Below are positions 10,531 to 18,323 of a stretch of 64,000 nt of DNA, one piece after another; the first letter of the stretch is position 1, and each line of letters opens with the position of its first letter. The translations under genes and the position numbers were made by a program. The DNA is from Chloroflexi bacterium GWB2_54_36 (GTDB taxonomy: Bacteria; Chloroflexota; Anaerolineae; Anaerolineales; Anaerolineaceae), in contig MGMG01000017.1 of assembly GCA_001796355.1 (NCBI GenBank), positions 1 to 64,000 on the forward strand. Direction: 5' to 3'. The notes beneath the pieces were generated by a model that ran no database searches, was not told the origin of the DNA, and worked only from the letters and a program-made list of their open reading frames with translations.

Positions 10531-11177
10531 ATACAACTATCTGTGGCTACGTTTGACAGATGCAAGGAATATATTTATAATAATTCTGCCAGATAATCAG
10601 CTATGCGGTGTTTTATCTTCAGGGATCCAAAACTTAGCTAGGCTTGACTGGCTGATCACGGCATGCCAAGGAAAAGTGAACATTCAACAGAAGAGGTTCT
10701 TACTCCAGTTCAAGATTGCTACAGAATCTCTAAATTCGTTATTGGTTATAATGAAGTGGGTTACGGTAAATGGGCTGGGTATTCGGACCTGAAATCCTGA
10801 ATCCAGCCGTTTTTGTATATCCGTCATTCTTTTGTGCCCTGGAAAATACGCTGAAACACCCGGGGCAAACACAAGCAGGCCAGGTGTCAGGCGTTACCTG
10901 CAGTCAAAGGAGAACTTAACGGGAGATAAGGCGTTTCCAGAGCTATAGCAAACCAGGTTATATGTGACAAAAAAGGTCGCGAAAGCATGGTGGTGCCCAA
11001 TAAATTGTAATATATCTGGTAAACTTTACCTATGATCGACCGTTATTTACAGCCAAATTAATTGTTATTTTTAAATTGGCTTATTCTTTGGAAGGAGGTG
11101 GTTTTTACTACAATCAATTATGATGCCGAAGTCGATGTCACCTTTTAACCCGACTATTTGTACGAGGAGGAGTTTGA
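10531..11177. other. Gene-free leader region of the first peptide transporter
   Basis: No coding frame with a credible ribosome-binding site was found here. AT-rich stretches near 11005-11080 could hold the transporter promoter, but no confident -35/-10 pair stands out. A strong Shine-Dalgarno-like GGAGGTGGT (11094-11102) lies 76 bases before the real start, with a second site (GAGGAGG) right at the start. The same GGAGGTGGT occurs before the second transporter's binding-protein gene at 22484-22492. Confidence 0.4.
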
Positions 11178-13742
11178 ATGTTTAAGAAGAGTTTTACGTT
11201 CGCATTTGCGCTTCTGATTGTTGCCAGTATGGTATTGGCAGCTTGCCAACCTGCTCAGACGACCCCAACAGAAGCCCCCGTTGTCGAACCGACAGCGGCT
11301 GTTGAACCGACGGCTGCCGAAGTCGTCCCCACCGAAGTTCCAACCCCCGAAGTAGTCCAAACCACCCGCAAAGGCGGTTGGTTGGATGAGATCGTGTTCT
11401 CGGTGGTCGCTTCCGATTCCGCCCTGACCCAGATCGGAGCTGGCGCCATTGACATCTATGCTAACGGCCTGTCCTCCAAGGACTTGCCTGCGATCAAAGA
11501 TGCCGGCGTGAGCTACTCGACCTCCAGCGGCTTGTACTATGACATCCTGTACAACCCGGTAGGCCCGGAATTCACCGACGGTCGTTTGAATCCGTTCTCC
11601 AATCGCAAGATCCGCGAGGCGACAAACTGGCTGTTCGATCGCGATTACATCAACCAGGAAGTCTATGCTGGCGGCGGTCTGGCCAAATTCTTCGCCATCA
11701 CCACCCAGTTCCCTGATTACGCGGACCTGGCGGATGTCGCCCGCAAGCTCGAATCCTACTACGCCTACAACTTCGACAAAGCCAAAGAAGTCATCACCGC
11801 TGAAATGGAAGGCATGGGCGCCACCCTGGTTGACGGCAAGTGGATGTACAAAGATGCCCCCGTCACCCTGGTCTACATCATCCGCAACGACTCCGACGGC
11901 ACCCGCATCCCCATCGGCGAGTACACTGCCGCCCAGTTCGAAGCCCTTGGCTTCACCGTTGACCGCCAGATGAAGAAGGGCTCAGAAGCCTCCCCGATCT
12001 GGATTGGTTCTGATCCCGTCGAAGGTCAATGGCACCTCTACACCGCTGCCTGGTCCGCCACCGTTCTCGACCGCGACCAGAGCAACATCTTCCAGGAAAT
12101 GTACCTGGACTCCAGCGCTCAGGGTATCCCTGCCTTCCTCGACAACGTCTCTGATCCTGAGTTCAAAGACCTCGGCGACCGCCTGGCCACCGCCGACTTC
12201 GCGACCGTTGAAGAACGGCACGACATGATGGCCCGCGCCCTCGAGCTCTCGCTCCAGGACTCGCTGCAGGTCTTCCTGATCGATGGCAAGGGATATATCC
12301 CCTATGTCAACGGTATGGTAGCCACCTCTGACCTGGCCGCCGGTATCGAAGGCGCTCAGATTTACCCCTACACCCTGCGCTTTGCCGACCAGGAAGGCGG
12401 CACGGTTCGCTGGGCCACCCAGGACCTGTTCGGAGAACCCTGGAACCCGATCGCTGGCTCCAACTGGGCATTTGACCAGGGCGCCATCCGCGCCACCCAG
12501 AGCGGCGACATCATGTACGATCCCTACACCGGCCTGGTTTGGCCGCTGCGCATCGAAAAAGCTGACGTCGTTGTGAAGGAAGGTCTGCCCGTTGGTAAGA
12601 CTCTTGATTGGGTCACCCTCGAGTTCGCCCCCGAAATCACGGTTCCGGCAGATGCCTGGATCGACTGGGATGCCGCCAACCAGGTCTTCGTGACCGTCGG
12701 CGAGAAGAACCCCGAAGGTCTGACTGCCCTGCGCAAGACCACCCTCACTTACCCGGCGGACATGTTCGAAACCGTAAAATGGCATGATGGCGCCAATCTG
12801 TCCGTCGCGGACTTCGTCTTTGGCATGATCATGACCTTTGACCGCGCCAAGACTGAAAGCGCCATCTACGACGCGCAGGCCGAGCCTGGCTTCCTGCCCT
12901 TCCAGGAAAACTTCCGCGGCTTCAAGATCGTCTCCACCCAGCCGCTGGTGATCGAATACTACTCCGACACCTACACACTGGATGCCGAACTGAACATCCC
13001 GCTCATGTTCCCGACCTACACCTTCGCTGAAGGTTCCTGGGACACGATGGCCGTCGCCAACGCTGCGGAAGCCGGTGGTGAACTGGCCTACTCGGTAGAC
13101 AAAGCCCTGGAAAAAGAGATCGAACAGACCAGCTTCATTGGCGGTCCGAGCCTCGAGATCCTGGCCAAATACCTGGATCAGGCCATCGCTGACAAAACCA
13201 TCCCCTACGCTCCTACAATGAGCGCATACCTGACGGCCGATGAAGCTGTCGCTCGCTACGAGGCCCTCAAGGCCTGGTACGGTGAGCACAACAACTTCAT
13301 GGTTGGCACTGGCCCGTACTTTGTAGACCAGGCTTTCCTGACCGAAAAGACCCTGACCCTCAAGCACTTTGCTGACTATCCTGATCTGGCAGACCGCTGG
13401 GCAAACTTTGGCGAGCCCAAGCTGGCTACGGTTGAACTGGATGGCCCTGGTCAGGTGAAGATTGGTGAAGAAGTCACATTCGACGTGTTCGTAACCTTCA
13501 ATGGCGAGCCCTATGCGGCTGCCGAAATCAAGCAGGTCAAGTTCTTGCTCTACAACGCGCAGAACGAGATCGTGAAGGTTGCCGAAGCCGTTGCTGTTGA
13601 AGACGGCCTGTACAGCGTCGTTCTGGATGCTGCAACCACCGCCGCTCTCGAAGCTGGTTCCAATAAGCTCGAGGTCGCGGTTGTTCCGTTCACCGTCTCC
13701 CAACCGACCTTCACGTCCGTCGAGTTCGTAACGGCTCCGTAA
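11178..13742 (+). CDS. Peptide-binding lipoprotein (family 5) with permuted lobe order
   Basis: This 854-residue protein has a lipoprotein signal (MVLAAC, Cys23) and a Thr/Pro-rich linker to about residue 62. In family 5 binding proteins the mature chain normally starts with GGT...NP and ends with the lobe carrying VRxAiNyaiDR. Here the order is reversed. Residues 65-400 carry GGWLDEIVF, GAIDIYANG and NPFSNRKIREATNWLFDRD. The canonical mature start (GGTVRWAT) appears only at about residue 407, followed by VKWHDGANLSVADFVFG (about 533) and VGTGPYFVDQ (about 709). A beta-sandwich domain (about 752-850) closes the protein. It would capture peptides for the permeases and ATPases that follow. A long perfect hairpin separates it from the permease gene, suggesting higher expression of this gene. 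Confidence 0.88.
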   Translation: MFKKSFTFAFALLIVASMVLAACQPAQTTPTEAPVVEPTAAVEPTAAEVVPTEVPTPEVVQTTRKGGWLDEIVFSVVASDSALTQIGAGAIDIYANGLSSKDLPAIKDAGVSYSTSSGLYYDILYNPVGPEFTDGRLNPFSNRKIREATNWLFDRDYINQEVYAGGGLAKFFAITTQFPDYADLADVARKLESYYAYNFDKAKEVITAEMEGMGATLVDGKWMYKDAPVTLVYIIRNDSDGTRIPIGEYTAAQFEALGFTVDRQMKKGSEASPIWIGSDPVEGQWHLYTAAWSATVLDRDQSNIFQEMYLDSSAQGIPAFLDNVSDPEFKDLGDRLATADFATVEERHDMMARALELSLQDSLQVFLIDGKGYIPYVNGMVATSDLAAGIEGAQIYPYTLRFADQEGGTVRWATQDLFGEPWNPIAGSNWAFDQGAIRATQSGDIMYDPYTGLVWPLRIEKADVVVKEGLPVGKTLDWVTLEFAPEITVPADAWIDWDAANQVFVTVGEKNPEGLTALRKTTLTYPADMFETVKWHDGANLSVADFVFGMIMTFDRAKTESAIYDAQAEPGFLPFQENFRGFKIVSTQPLVIEYYSDTYTLDAELNIPLMFPTYTFAEGSWDTMAVANAAEAGGELAYSVDKALEKEIEQTSFIGGPSLEILAKYLDQAIADKTIPYAPTMSAYLTADEAVARYEALKAWYGEHNNFMVGTGPYFVDQAFLTEKTLTLKHFADYPDLADRWANFGEPKLATVELDGPGQVKIGEEVTFDVFVTFNGEPYAAAEIKQVKFLLYNAQNEIVKVAEAVAVEDGLYSVVLDAATTAALEAGSNKLEVAVVPFTVSQPTFTSVEFVTAP

Positions 13743-13828: not shown

Positions 13829-14950
13829 ATGACACAGGATACTCAAGCCGGCGTCCTCGGTGTACAAAAGAAGAAATCGACCTCAGCGTTTACCAGGGTG
13901 GCCCGTTTTATGGGTATCCGGGCGATTACGTTGTTCTTTACCGTGGTGATCGGGGTTTATACCACCATCCTCATCGCCAACATGGGTGGATACGTCGACA
14001 CCATCATGCGCAACGACATTCGTGAACGGGTGAACCAGCGCGTGGCAGCCTCGACCGCCAACCAGAATATTTCAGCGGAGACCCGCCGCCAAATGGCCGA
14101 TGAATTGATCGCCTTGGAAGAAAAACGGCTGGGTCTGAACACACCGTTTGCGATCCGTTCATTTCGCTACCTTACGGATGCGCTGCAGTTGGAACTCGGT
14201 CGGGCGCAGAATATGGTCAGCGATAATGGCTCGCGCACGGTGCGCAATATCATCCTCGAGCGCCTGCCAGCAACTTTGCTGTTAATGGGCACATCTCAGT
14301 TATTTTTGTTTTTTTTCAGTGTTTTTATCGCGCTGACTCTATCCCGTGCGTATGGTAGTTTTTGGGATAAGATGGTGATTACCCTTTCGCCTACATCCGC
14401 GGCGCCATCGTGGTTTTACGGCATCTTCTTTATCCTGCTTTTTGCTGCCGTGTTTAAGATTTTACCGTTTGGCGGCATGGTGGATGCACCCGTGCCCGAC
14501 AATAAGTTTGACTATATTTTGAATGTGTTGAAGCATTTGATCCTTCCAGCAAGCTCACTGATTATTAGTTCGTTATTTCTTAGCATCTATAACTGGCGAA
14601 CTTTCTTCTTGATTTACTCCAGCGAAGATTACGTGGATATGGCCAAAGCCAAAGGGCTGCCGTCGCGGGATATCGAGCGGCGTTACATCCTCCGGCCGAC
14701 CTTGCCGACCATCATCACCAATTTTGCGCTATTGGTCATCGGCCTGTGGACCGGCGCTATTATTACTGAAACAGTCTTCCTGTGGCCTGGCCTTGGTCGA
14801 ACGCTGTTCCGGGCGATCGGGTTCTTCGATACGCCCGTGATTGTTGGGTCGACCATCATCTACGCGTACCTGCTCGCTATTACCGTATTTCTCCTCGATT
14901 TTGTCTATGTTCTGGTTGACCCGCGCGTAAAAGTGGGCGGTGGAAAATAG
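13829..14950 (+). CDS. Peptide ABC transporter permease (DppB/OppB type)
   Basis: This 373-residue inner-membrane protein has one N-terminal transmembrane helix (about 30-52), an extended charged extracytoplasmic loop (about 55-135) and then about five helices. The EAA-type coupling segment is DMAKAKGLPSRDIERRYILR, followed by ETVFLWPGLG, typical of the DppB family. Family members form the translocation pore with a DppC-type partner, encoded next. It lies 86 bp after the binding-protein gene and 2 bp before the partner permease. Confidence 0.9.
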   Translation: MTQDTQAGVLGVQKKKSTSAFTRVARFMGIRAITLFFTVVIGVYTTILIANMGGYVDTIMRNDIRERVNQRVAASTANQNISAETRRQMADELIALEEKRLGLNTPFAIRSFRYLTDALQLELGRAQNMVSDNGSRTVRNIILERLPATLLLMGTSQLFLFFFSVFIALTLSRAYGSFWDKMVITLSPTSAAPSWFYGIFFILLFAAVFKILPFGGMVDAPVPDNKFDYILNVLKHLILPASSLIISSLFLSIYNWRTFFLIYSSEDYVDMAKAKGLPSRDIERRYILRPTLPTIITNFALLVIGLWTGAIITETVFLWPGLGRTLFRAIGFFDTPVIVGSTIIYAYLLAITVFLLDFVYVLVDPRVKVGGGK

Positions 14951-14952
14951 CC

Positions 14953-16308
14953 ATGAAAAACTTGAAAAAAAATTTCGCCGAGATTTCTCGCTACCCTTCA
15001 GCGGTTTTTGGTCTTTTTATAATATTCCTGCTGGTAGCCCTGGCAATCTTTGCTGTAATTAAGATACCTTATTCCGAGGCTGTTCGCCTGTGGCGCGGCG
15101 GCGAAGACGTCTGGTATATGAACCCTAAGAACGTCCCACCCGCTTGGTTTAACACTTTTAGGAAAACCAAGTTACCTGAATCATTTGCTATAAAAGGCGG
15201 GGAAGAGGGCTTTACCAAAACCGTTACGCCGAGCAGCCCGGATACAGCAGCCATTGATTTCGAATACGCCTTCGATTTCAATTACGATGTGTATCCACAG
15301 GAGTTGATGCTGTACTTCACCTCTACTTACCAGAGTAAAAATCCCTTCGTTTCCATCTATTTGATCACTCCGGATGGCGAAGAAATACGCATCGGTGACC
15401 TGGGCATCAGCGCCAGGCAAACCTTTCGCTTCTCGCAGGATGAAAAGCTGATCAAGCGGCTGGTGCGCGAAAAGCGCAACGACGACCCAATGCTCGGGCT
15501 ATTCTCGGTTCCCGAGACCGACCCACCGGTACCACAAAAAGGCAGCTACAAGTTGGTTGTTAATGGACAAACCTTCGAGGCTGACTCGGACATCAATGTA
15601 GAATTTGTCTTCCACGGCCAATCCTACGGCCTGGCAGGCACCGATCACGCGCGGCGCGACCTGATGGTGGCCCTGCTGTGGGGCGCCCCGATTGCTTTGG
15701 CCTTCGGCTTGCTGGCTGCGCTGGCGACCTCGATCCTTTCGATGGCGATTGCTGCCATTGGCGCCTGGTTTGGCGGCTGGCTGGACGAACTCATCCAGCG
15801 CATCACCGAGGTTAACCTGGTACTGCCCTTCCTGGCGGTTTTGATCATGGTGGGCACTTTCTATTCCACCAGTATCTGGACCATTCTGGGCGTTACCATT
15901 TTGCTCAGTATTTTCACGGGTGCGGTCAAATCGTACCGCGCCGTATTCCTGCAAGTGAAGGAATCGACGTACATTGAAGCTGCCAAGGCATACGGCGCCA
16001 GCAATTTCCGCATCATATTCTTCTACCTGATCCCGCGCATGATCCCGCTGCTCATCCCCACGCTGGTTTCGGCTGTGCCAGCCTACGTTTTCCTGGAAGC
16101 GTCACTGGCTCTTCTTGGACTGGGCGACCCGGTGCTGCCGACCTGGGGTAAGGTGATCAATGACGCCCAATCCAACGGAGCTTTGTATAAAGGTTATTAT
16201 TACTGGATTTTGGAACCCGCTGTGCTGCTCATGGTCACTGGTCTGGGTTTCGCGATGTTGGGTTTTGCGCTCGACCGCATCTTCAATCCAAGACTGAGAG
16301 GTATCTAG
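14953..16308 (+). CDS. Peptide ABC transporter permease (DppC type) with large ectodomain
   Basis: This 451-residue permease is about 150 residues longer than typical DppC proteins (about 300). After transmembrane helix 1 (about 18-38) comes a soluble insert to about residue 225, including a beta-rich stretch (VSIYLITPDGEEIRIGDLG). The usual family features follow: GTDHARRDLMVALLWGAPIA, the coupling segment EAAKAYGASNFRIIFFYLIP, and the LEASLALLGLGDP signature. The insert would face outward and could contact the unusual binding protein of the same operon. It lies 2 bp after the DppB-type gene and 4 bp before the first ATPase. Confidence 0.9.
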   Translation: MKNLKKNFAEISRYPSAVFGLFIIFLLVALAIFAVIKIPYSEAVRLWRGGEDVWYMNPKNVPPAWFNTFRKTKLPESFAIKGGEEGFTKTVTPSSPDTAAIDFEYAFDFNYDVYPQELMLYFTSTYQSKNPFVSIYLITPDGEEIRIGDLGISARQTFRFSQDEKLIKRLVREKRNDDPMLGLFSVPETDPPVPQKGSYKLVVNGQTFEADSDINVEFVFHGQSYGLAGTDHARRDLMVALLWGAPIALAFGLLAALATSILSMAIAAIGAWFGGWLDELIQRITEVNLVLPFLAVLIMVGTFYSTSIWTILGVTILLSIFTGAVKSYRAVFLQVKESTYIEAAKAYGASNFRIIFFYLIPRMIPLLIPTLVSAVPAYVFLEASLALLGLGDPVLPTWGKVINDAQSNGALYKGYYYWILEPAVLLMVTGLGFAMLGFALDRIFNPRLRGI

Positions 16309-16312
16309 CAAC

Positions 16313-17269
16313 ATGGCGGACACAACATTGTTGCAGCTGGAAAATTTAAAACTGTATTTCAAAACAAGTCGCGGCACCGTACAGGCCGTGGACGGGGTGG
16401 ACTTCACCCTGAATTCCAACGAAGCCATCGTAGTAGTTGGCGAGTCGGGCTGCGGGAAAAGCTCACTGGCTAAAGCCATTCTGCGTTTGCTACCGCGTAA
16501 CGTTCAGGAATATTCCGGCAAGGTCTACCTAAATGGCAAAGAGTTGATGAGCCTGACGGAGGAAGAGTACCGTCAGCAAATCCGCTGGATCAAGATAGCC
16601 ATGGTACCCCAGGCAGCTATGAACGCGCTCAACCCAGTGCTCAAAGTTGGCGAGCAGGTGGCTGAACCGATGATGGTTCACTTTGGCGTCAAAAAGGAAG
16701 AGGCGCTTGCCCAGGCGCAAAAAATGTTTCAGCACGTTGGCGTGCCGGCGGACTTTATCAACCGTTATGCCTTTGAGCTGAGCGGCGGGATGCGCCAGCG
16801 GGTTGCCCTGGCGATGTCATTGGTCACCACTCCTGACCTGATCATTTTGGATGAGCCGACTTCGGCGTTGGATGTGTTGACCCAGGCAAATATTTTCAAC
16901 TTGCTCAAACGCATCAAGCAGCAAATGGCTACCAGCTTTATCCTGATCACCCATGATATTGCCACCTCCAGCGAACTGGCCGATCGGGCAGCGGTCATGT
17001 ATGCCGGGCAAATTGTAGAGGTGAGCGATGCCAAGACTTTCTTCAGCCAACCGCATCACCCATACTCAGCCAAACTAATGGCCAGCGTGCCCAAGCTGCG
17101 CGGCAATGCGATTCCTGAATTTATCACCGGCCAGCCGCCCAGTTTGATCAATCCGCCGACTGGCTGCCGGTTTGCCGCCCGCTGCCCGAAGCGCTTTGCA
17201 CGCTGCGTTGAAGAACCGCCTGTGGTTCAGTTGGATGGCAATTTAGTCAAATGCTGGTTGTATGTGTAG
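16313..17269 (+). CDS. Peptide ABC transporter ATPase (DppD/OppD type)
   Basis: This 318-residue cytoplasmic ATPase has Walker A (GESGCGKSS), the ABC signature (LSGGMRQRV), Walker B (LIILDEPTSALD) and the H-loop (LITHDIATS). It ends with the oligopeptide-transporter C-terminal Cys-rich extension (GCRFAARCPKRFARC). Together with the next gene it would form the nucleotide-binding pair that powers import. It is encoded 4 bp after the DppC-type permease. Confidence 0.93.
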   Translation: MADTTLLQLENLKLYFKTSRGTVQAVDGVDFTLNSNEAIVVVGESGCGKSSLAKAILRLLPRNVQEYSGKVYLNGKELMSLTEEEYRQQIRWIKIAMVPQAAMNALNPVLKVGEQVAEPMMVHFGVKKEEALAQAQKMFQHVGVPADFINRYAFELSGGMRQRVALAMSLVTTPDLIILDEPTSALDVLTQANIFNLLKRIKQQMATSFILITHDIATSSELADRAAVMYAGQIVEVSDAKTFFSQPHHPYSAKLMASVPKLRGNAIPEFITGQPPSLINPPTGCRFAARCPKRFARCVEEPPVVQLDGNLVKCWLYV

Positions 17270-17282
17270 GGCGGGGTGAATA

Positions 17283-18323
17283 ATGACGATTGAACAAGAC
17301 AAAATTCAGGAACAGTTGGTTGTGGCTGACAACAACAAGAAGAACAGCACCGGCGCGCTATTGTCCGTCCAGGATTTACGCGTTCATTTTGAGCTGCGCA
17401 AATTTGGCTTTGGCCATGCCGGTTATGTTCGCGCCGTTGACGGGGTCAGCTTTGAGTTGAAGCACGGCGCATCGATCGCGATTGTGGGCGAGAGCGGTTG
17501 CGGCAAAACCAGTCTGATGAAGACCATCCTGGCGCTGTATAAGCCCACCGCCGGACATGTCATTTTTGATGGGAAAGACCTCAGCACGCTAAAAGGCGCT
17601 GATTTAAAGGCTTACCGGTCTGAGGTTGGATTTGTTCAACAAGATCCGTACGGCGCCCTGCCGCCGTTTATGACCGTTCAACGCATACTGGAAGAACCGT
17701 TGACCATCAACGGCGTGAAAGATAAGGAAGAACGGCTGGAACGCATCAGCAAGGTGTTGGAAGAAGTCAAGATGACTCCGGTCAATGAGTTCTTACCAAA
17801 ATTCCCCCACCAGCTCTCCGGTGGCCAACAGCAGCGCATCGTTATTGCGCGCGCCATGATCCTGAATCCCAAGCTGCTGGTGGCGGATGAACCCGTTTCG
17901 ATGTTGGACGCGTCGGTTCGCGTTGAAATCCTAAAACTGCTGCGCGGCTTGCAGGAAAAACACAACCTGGCGGTAATTTACGTCACACACGACCTGTCCA
18001 CCGTGCGCTATTTCTCGGAGCGCATCTTCGTGATGTACGCCGGGCAGGTGATCGAGAAGGGGCAGGTGGATTTGCTGGTCAATAATCCGCTGCACCCGTA
18101 CACGTACGCGCTGCTGCAGGGTACCTCCGATCCGGATGCCCATAACGCGACGGTGATGAAGGAAGTGCCGCCGGGTGAGCCGCCCAGTTTAGTGAACCCG
18201 CCGTCTGGCTGCCGCTTCCACCCGCGCTGCCCGAAAATCATTAAGGGCCTGTGCGAAGTCAAGGTACCGCCTGAAGTTGAGCCGGTACCCGGTCAATTGA
18301 CCTCCTGCTGGTTGTACGAATGA
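17283..18323 (+). CDS. Peptide ABC transporter ATPase (DppF/OppF type)
   Basis: This 346-residue ATPase carries Walker A (GESGCGKTS), the signature LSGGQQQRI, Walker B (LLVADEPVSMLD), the H-loop (YVTHDLSTV) and the family C-terminal motif GCRFHPRCPKIIKGLC. An N-terminal extension of about 25 polar residues precedes the ABC domain. It follows its partner ATPase by 13 bp and overlaps the small membrane-protein gene by 4 bp, so it is the last main component of the first transporter operon. Confidence 0.93.
   Translation: MTIEQDKIQEQLVVADNNKKNSTGALLSVQDLRVHFELRKFGFGHAGYVRAVDGVSFELKHGASIAIVGESGCGKTSLMKTILALYKPTAGHVIFDGKDLSTLKGADLKAYRSEVGFVQQDPYGALPPFMTVQRILEEPLTINGVKDKEERLERISKVLEEVKMTPVNEFLPKFPHQLSGGQQQRIVIARAMILNPKLLVADEPVSMLDASVRVEILKLLRGLQEKHNLAVIYVTHDLSTVRYFSERIFVMYAGQVIEKGQVDLLVNNPLHPYTYALLQGTSDPDAHNATVMKEVPPGEPPSLVNPPSGCRFHPRCPKIIKGLCEVKVPPEVEPVPGQLTSCWLYE

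Follow-up and report, generated by a model that had tools for sequence, protein, structure and literature searches.

Substrate-binding proteins (SBPs) of ABC importers consist of two lobes that close upon a ligand and then dock to the permeases of the transporter. The betaine-binding proteins OpuAC and ProX, which belong to a different SBP cluster from the protein described here, are related by a change in chain order. Canonical family-5 SBPs such as DppA, OppA and NikA share with the present protein the PF00496 profile and the two-lobed fold, but differ from it in the order of their halves and in their length, which is mostly about 500 aa. The nearest solved structure, a pentapeptide complex of Thermococcus kodakarensis OppA (7fi3), is matched best by both halves of our protein, in sequence as well as in structure, belongs to the same family and is similarly long, but its order is canonical, with the early lobe (N) followed by the first (C1) and second (C2) halves of the late lobe (N-C1-C2). 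Tp0684/TpMglB-2 of Treponema pallidum is likewise an SBP circularly permuted in nature, and serves an ABC importer as a membrane-tethered lipoprotein, although its fold is cluster B/type I sugar-binding, of another family and with another cut, and the available part of its description mentions no second permutation (PMC4990184). Permutation of an SBP is thus already known from a sugar-binding protein, and the unusual part of the present case is the apparent repeated switching among three orders. Our literature search, with most subscription papers and bioRxiv preprints outside its reach, found no permuted family-5 SBP.

Layout of the permuted protein and its operon

The window, by which we mean the whole stretch of 64,000 nucleotides analysed from Chloroflexi bacterium GWB2_54_36, encodes on its forward strand, which carries all features given below, a permuted family-5 SBP of 854 aa (11178-13742), recognised by profile, rotation and structure matches. 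Reading of the sequence places a purine-rich ribosome-binding site 5' of the ATG (11164-11171) and a lipoprotein signal peptide (11178-11246) with the motif LAAC, which we take to be a lipobox with Cys23. A Pro/Thr/Glu-rich linker (residues 24-65; 11247-11372), disordered in the prediction with pLDDT < 50, leads to the canonical late lobe (residues 67-402), of which C1 (residues 67-228; 11376-11861) was delimited by its match to 7fi3 from chain residue 327 and an HMM split, and C2 (residues 229-402; 11862-12383) by structure match and HMM split. The C-terminal limit of C2 is where canonical chains end, and the border between C1 and C2 is the cut point of a second permutation found in relatives. 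The new junction (about residues 403-408; 12384-12401), located from the strands of the whole-chain model and the alignment of an archaeal relative (L043) to 7fi3, connects, in the predicted model, the strand that ends canonical chains (395-402) with the one that starts them (409-414). The canonical early lobe, N (residues 403-751; 12384-13430), is thus preceded by the late lobe and is followed by a C-terminal Ig/macroglobulin-like beta-sandwich (residues 752-854; 13431-13739), for which the Pfam match to FlgD_ig (E 0.004) lies below the cut-off of that family.

The gene is the first of a five-gene Opp-type importer operon, and the link of SBP_bac_5 proteins to Opp/Dpp-type permeases and ATPases is therefore found here as well. 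It is followed by an OppB-type permease (13829-14950; BPD_transp_1), an OppC-type permease of 451 aa (14953-16308; Pfam, with Opp4C profile positions 58-278 at residues 227-447) and OppD-type (16313-17269) and OppF-type (17283-18323) ATPases, both with ABC_tran and oligo_HPY. Between its first transmembrane segment and the permease core, OppC carries an insert of about 180 aa (15079-15630) without a Pfam match, which might dock the SBP. Mostly, the OppC proteins beside permuted SBPs are about 445-470 aa long. The complete SBP-OppB-OppC-OppD-OppF arrangement occurs in 10 of the 11 loci L032-L042, while L035 leaves its contig within OppD; the L043 locus has SBP-OppB-OppC, with an ATPase gene upstream. 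Five additional family-5 SBPs are encoded in the genome of the window, one of which (L108) alone matches both lobes, in canonical order.

Evidence for the rotated chain order

The match of the protein to PF00496 (SBP_bac_5) reaches 91.1 bits against a curated cut-off of 32.4 bits. Positions 148-355 of the Pfam profile correspond to residues 69-301 and positions about 25-153 to a later piece, about residues 531-754, so that the order of the profile is reversed in the chain. Because of this reversal of the canonical order, in which the N lobe precedes the C lobe, the protein is not a canonical SBP_bac_5 member, and we file it as a permuted branch through the homology of both halves. Comparison of 7fi3_A with a profile of 13 relatives likewise gave two reversed, non-overlapping matches, profile positions 473-728 to chain 62-307 (E 2.9e-24) and 66-295 to chain 327-577 (E 1.6e-34), a reversal that, judged from the alignments, far exceeds chance. 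Without rotation, the protein aligned to 7fi3 in two pieces of 28.5 and 38.6 bits; once rotated, it gave a single alignment (rotated 79-578 to chain 63-569) of 73.2 bits. These results bear out the sequence-only reading, which had placed the late lobe before the early lobe and had proposed profile alignment as a check. The ORF, coordinates and motifs on which that reading was built were correct within one residue, with GGWLDEIVF at residue 66, NRKIREATNWLFDRD at 142, GGTVRWAT at 407, VKWHDG at 533, GTGPY at 710 and EPKLA before 751.

The joint is shown best by the archaeal L043, in which residues 412-699 align to 7fi3 19-305 and residues 57-309 to 319-590, and residues 337-398 give a weak match to 663-724 (i-Evalue 66). 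As L043 residue 398 corresponds through this weak match to chain residue 724, and residue 412 to chain residue 19, the canonical end and start lie within about 14 residues of each other. The protein of the window thus has the features of a natural permutant, in that the old ends are joined, new ends are made, both halves are intact and the match is continuous once rotated.

The structure predictions lead to the same arrangement. In the whole-chain model (mean pLDDT 75.6, pTM 0.69, with 13 sequences in the alignment), residues 61-405 superpose on 7fi3 334-755 (Z 23.4, rmsd 3.6 A, 335 aligned; VIA-align) and correspond in DppA, AppA, TM1223 and others to the second half alone, to near the C-terminus. 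Since the VIA matches of this model were mainly to residues 61-405, residues 403-854 were modelled separately (pLDDT 85.4), and from residue 403 onward they align to 7fi3 starting at its residue 34 (Z 25.7, rmsd 3.0 A, 289 aligned), the range 34-602 giving only the first and last aligned residue. Both lobes thus show the family-5 fold in the predicted models. Residues 748-854 match CD109 (Z 12.3, rmsd 2.0, 100 aligned), so that the extra beta-sandwich recognised earlier after the second part is of the Ig/macroglobulin type. Foldseek with the whole chain returned partial matches only, with TM-scores < 0.5 among the matches listed, as expected from a permutation. The order is concealed when annotation rests on single-profile matches.

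At 854 aa, against about 500 aa typical for family-5 SBPs, the chain could be long enough for a tandem of two complete and separate SBP domains, but in both sequence and structure its halves correspond to different halves of one canonical chain, without overlap. As residues 61-405 match the canonical second half and residues 403 onward the canonical start, neither is a whole SBP, which is the outcome that the structure prediction suggested with the earlier reading was to decide, and we reject the tandem explanation as having next to no likelihood. The short loop joining the lobes would also suit a domain-swapped dimer, in which each half pairs with its counterpart from a second chain; the monomer model of the whole chain (pTM 0.69) argues weakly against this arrangement, which we consider very improbable.

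We are thus highly confident that the protein is a family-5 SBP circularly permuted in nature and that it acts as the lipid-anchored receptor for an ABC importer of the Opp type, with one chain probably forming one trap and an order probably reached by duplication, fusion and trimming. The chain is opened at the hinge between the canonical early and late lobes, and a loop of about six residues connects the old termini. A single two-lobed trap would still form from one chain, close on its ligand and hand it to OppBC, and both the anchor linker and the Ig-like domain would exit from the hinge. The C1-C2-N order may have arisen by tandem duplication, fusion and trimming, and renewed trimming elsewhere in relatives would yield all three circular orders. 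By analogy with the pentapeptide in the nearest structure, and with one relative fused to a matrixin-like domain (L095), the ligands are probably peptides.

Distribution and fusions of the permuted order

A relative (E <= 1e-10) is present in 20 of the 61 genomes nearest to that of the window, its own included. Twelve loci came from named records, including an Anaerolinea thermolimosa isolate and a Nitrososphaera MAG, and all 12 align to the protein of the window in its own order (L035 partially). A rotated profile matched 38 of 400 Chloroflexota genomes, nearly all in two pieces and in permuted order. It also matched 152 of 250 genomes of the phylum of L043, with matches listed for part of them; both counts are of genomes with a match, with few candidates scored per genome and the order checked in part. 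The class and phylum of L043 were taken from the title of its record. Twenty genomes were drawn from the 152 matching ones, mostly for weak scores. With L043 as query, 121 of 150 genomes matched in the archaeal class of the Nitrososphaera MAG (that of G061), and both lobes were spanned in nearly all of them, the partial or split cases being G201 (two contigs), G108, G097, G071 and G179. The same order was thus widely found in other species, as the sequence-only reading had suggested looking for. To our knowledge, the use of peptides by ammonia-oxidising archaea is an open question, and the high frequency in this class makes the permuted SBP a candidate organic-nutrient receptor of these organisms. 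A plasmid search with the rotated protein gave no match.

Assembly or binning artefacts have to be weighed, as the genome of the window is in 103 contigs and many relatives are from MAGs; however, the same order occurs in the Anaerolinea thermolimosa isolate, on a single contig of 4.4 Mb (G047) and in two phyla. We therefore reject an artefact for the first permutation as practically impossible. Mis-binning probably does apply to one record, L038, which is assigned to Tissierellia and clusters in the tree with Anaerolineaceae-type proteins. In the same tree, of 85 rows hand-picked from the proteins collected by then, permuted SBPs from nine loci in archaeal-group genomes (L107, L117, L119, L121, L132, L138 and L140-L142) cluster with Chloroflexota and not with Nitrososphaera, which suggests transfer between domains; the C-terminus of L107 has a coiled coil and a membrane segment.

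Permuted cores are also found within larger proteins. The lengths of L030 (G019, complete) and L027 (G048, cut by its contig) had suggested tandem SBP fusions, which we rejected, as in both the permuted SBP is preceded by a Ser/Thr kinase and a membrane segment (the L030 kinase by Pfam). From this domain order, they are probably receptor kinases with an SBP sensor, and the closure of the lobes may plausibly be relayed to the kinase. In a protein of 1075 aa (L095:2978-6205), a matrixin-like metallopeptidase domain (HEIGHTLGLDD) lies N-terminal to the permuted SBP, and an archaeal protein of 2079 aa (L104:1817-8056) combines FG-GAP repeats, a permuted SBP and two type-I periplasmic binding domains. 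Additionally, L019, L026, L091 and L093 have an insertion of about 100 residues within the early lobe, at query residue about 509.

A second permutation and the probable switching of orders

New here is a second permutation within one Chloroflexota family, C2-N-C1, in which the cut always falls in the same loop. It is represented by five proteins (L094, L147, L153, L148 and L150) on separate contigs from four genomes (G594, G822, G836 and G837), which makes an artefact unlikely for this order as well. In L094 (the same protein as L146 and L191), the signal peptide is followed directly by C2, then N and C1, and the OppB and OppC genes come after it. Pfam positions 115-278 match L094 536-736 in a single stretch, and the canonical hinge joint is therefore covalent again. 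The cut lies in the loop before the strand VTLVYIIR (residue 229 of the protein of the window) in the four proteins with complete ends, and L153, whose start is truncated, has its C-terminus at the same loop. L148 has a ribosome-binding site 5' of its start and a hairpin 3' of its stop.

Among distinct proteins holding all three segments, 149 are C1-C2-N, five C2-N-C1 and three N-C1-C2, with duplicates removed by a 200-residue core and proteins without one of the three segments excluded; as the loci are best matches, these numbers are not a random sample. All three joints (N-C1, C1-C2 and C2-N) are thus covalent among the relatives. The trees were built from rotated sequences, include long branches and many sequences of unusual composition, and had their groups named after the first tree was seen. 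In them, the C2-N-C1 proteins are spread over three positions within the C1-C2-N ones. Two archaeal proteins of canonical order (L179 and L180) nest among permuted relatives, in a group whose first branch is Thermococcus OppA, and C1-C2-N as one clade is rejected (p-AU 0.0013 without the bacterial outgroup and 0.0003 with it). L198 is N-C1-C2 and cut at the contig start; its stop is followed by a hairpin, its end retains a linker of the C2-N type, and it groups with L147/L153 (support 88/90).

A single origin of C2-N-C1, its scattered places being due to tree error or gene conversion with neighbours, would agree with the cut loop shared by all cases and with the similar N-C1 linker of several (PAHTG in L147, L148 and L153). 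However, a single C2-N-C1 clade is rejected for the whole chain (p-AU 3.6e-38) and separately for N (9.9e-59), C1 (0.015) and C2 (1.3e-86), and the pairings of L148 with L092 and of L150 with L155/L159 are common to the N, C1 and C2 trees; we thus regard a single origin as unlikely. As the second permutants do not form one clade and canonical relatives are nested within permuted ones, one fold appears in all three orders and was switched repeatedly. We lean towards the SBP of this clade being a cyclic module. Its open end would have moved several times among three fixed places through recurrent rounds of tandem duplication, fusion and trimming, and some of these moves would have restored the canonical order (L179/L180, L198 and perhaps Thermococcus OppA). 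A single origin with reversals is, on the sequences at hand, indistinguishable from several origins. Repeated re-permutation provides a natural series on where a two-lobed trap tolerates chain ends, and this series may guide biosensor design. No fused tandem intermediate was found among the relatives. Tandem pairs of permuted SBP genes do occur in L096 and L100, and such genes are a possible source of duplicate-and-trim events.
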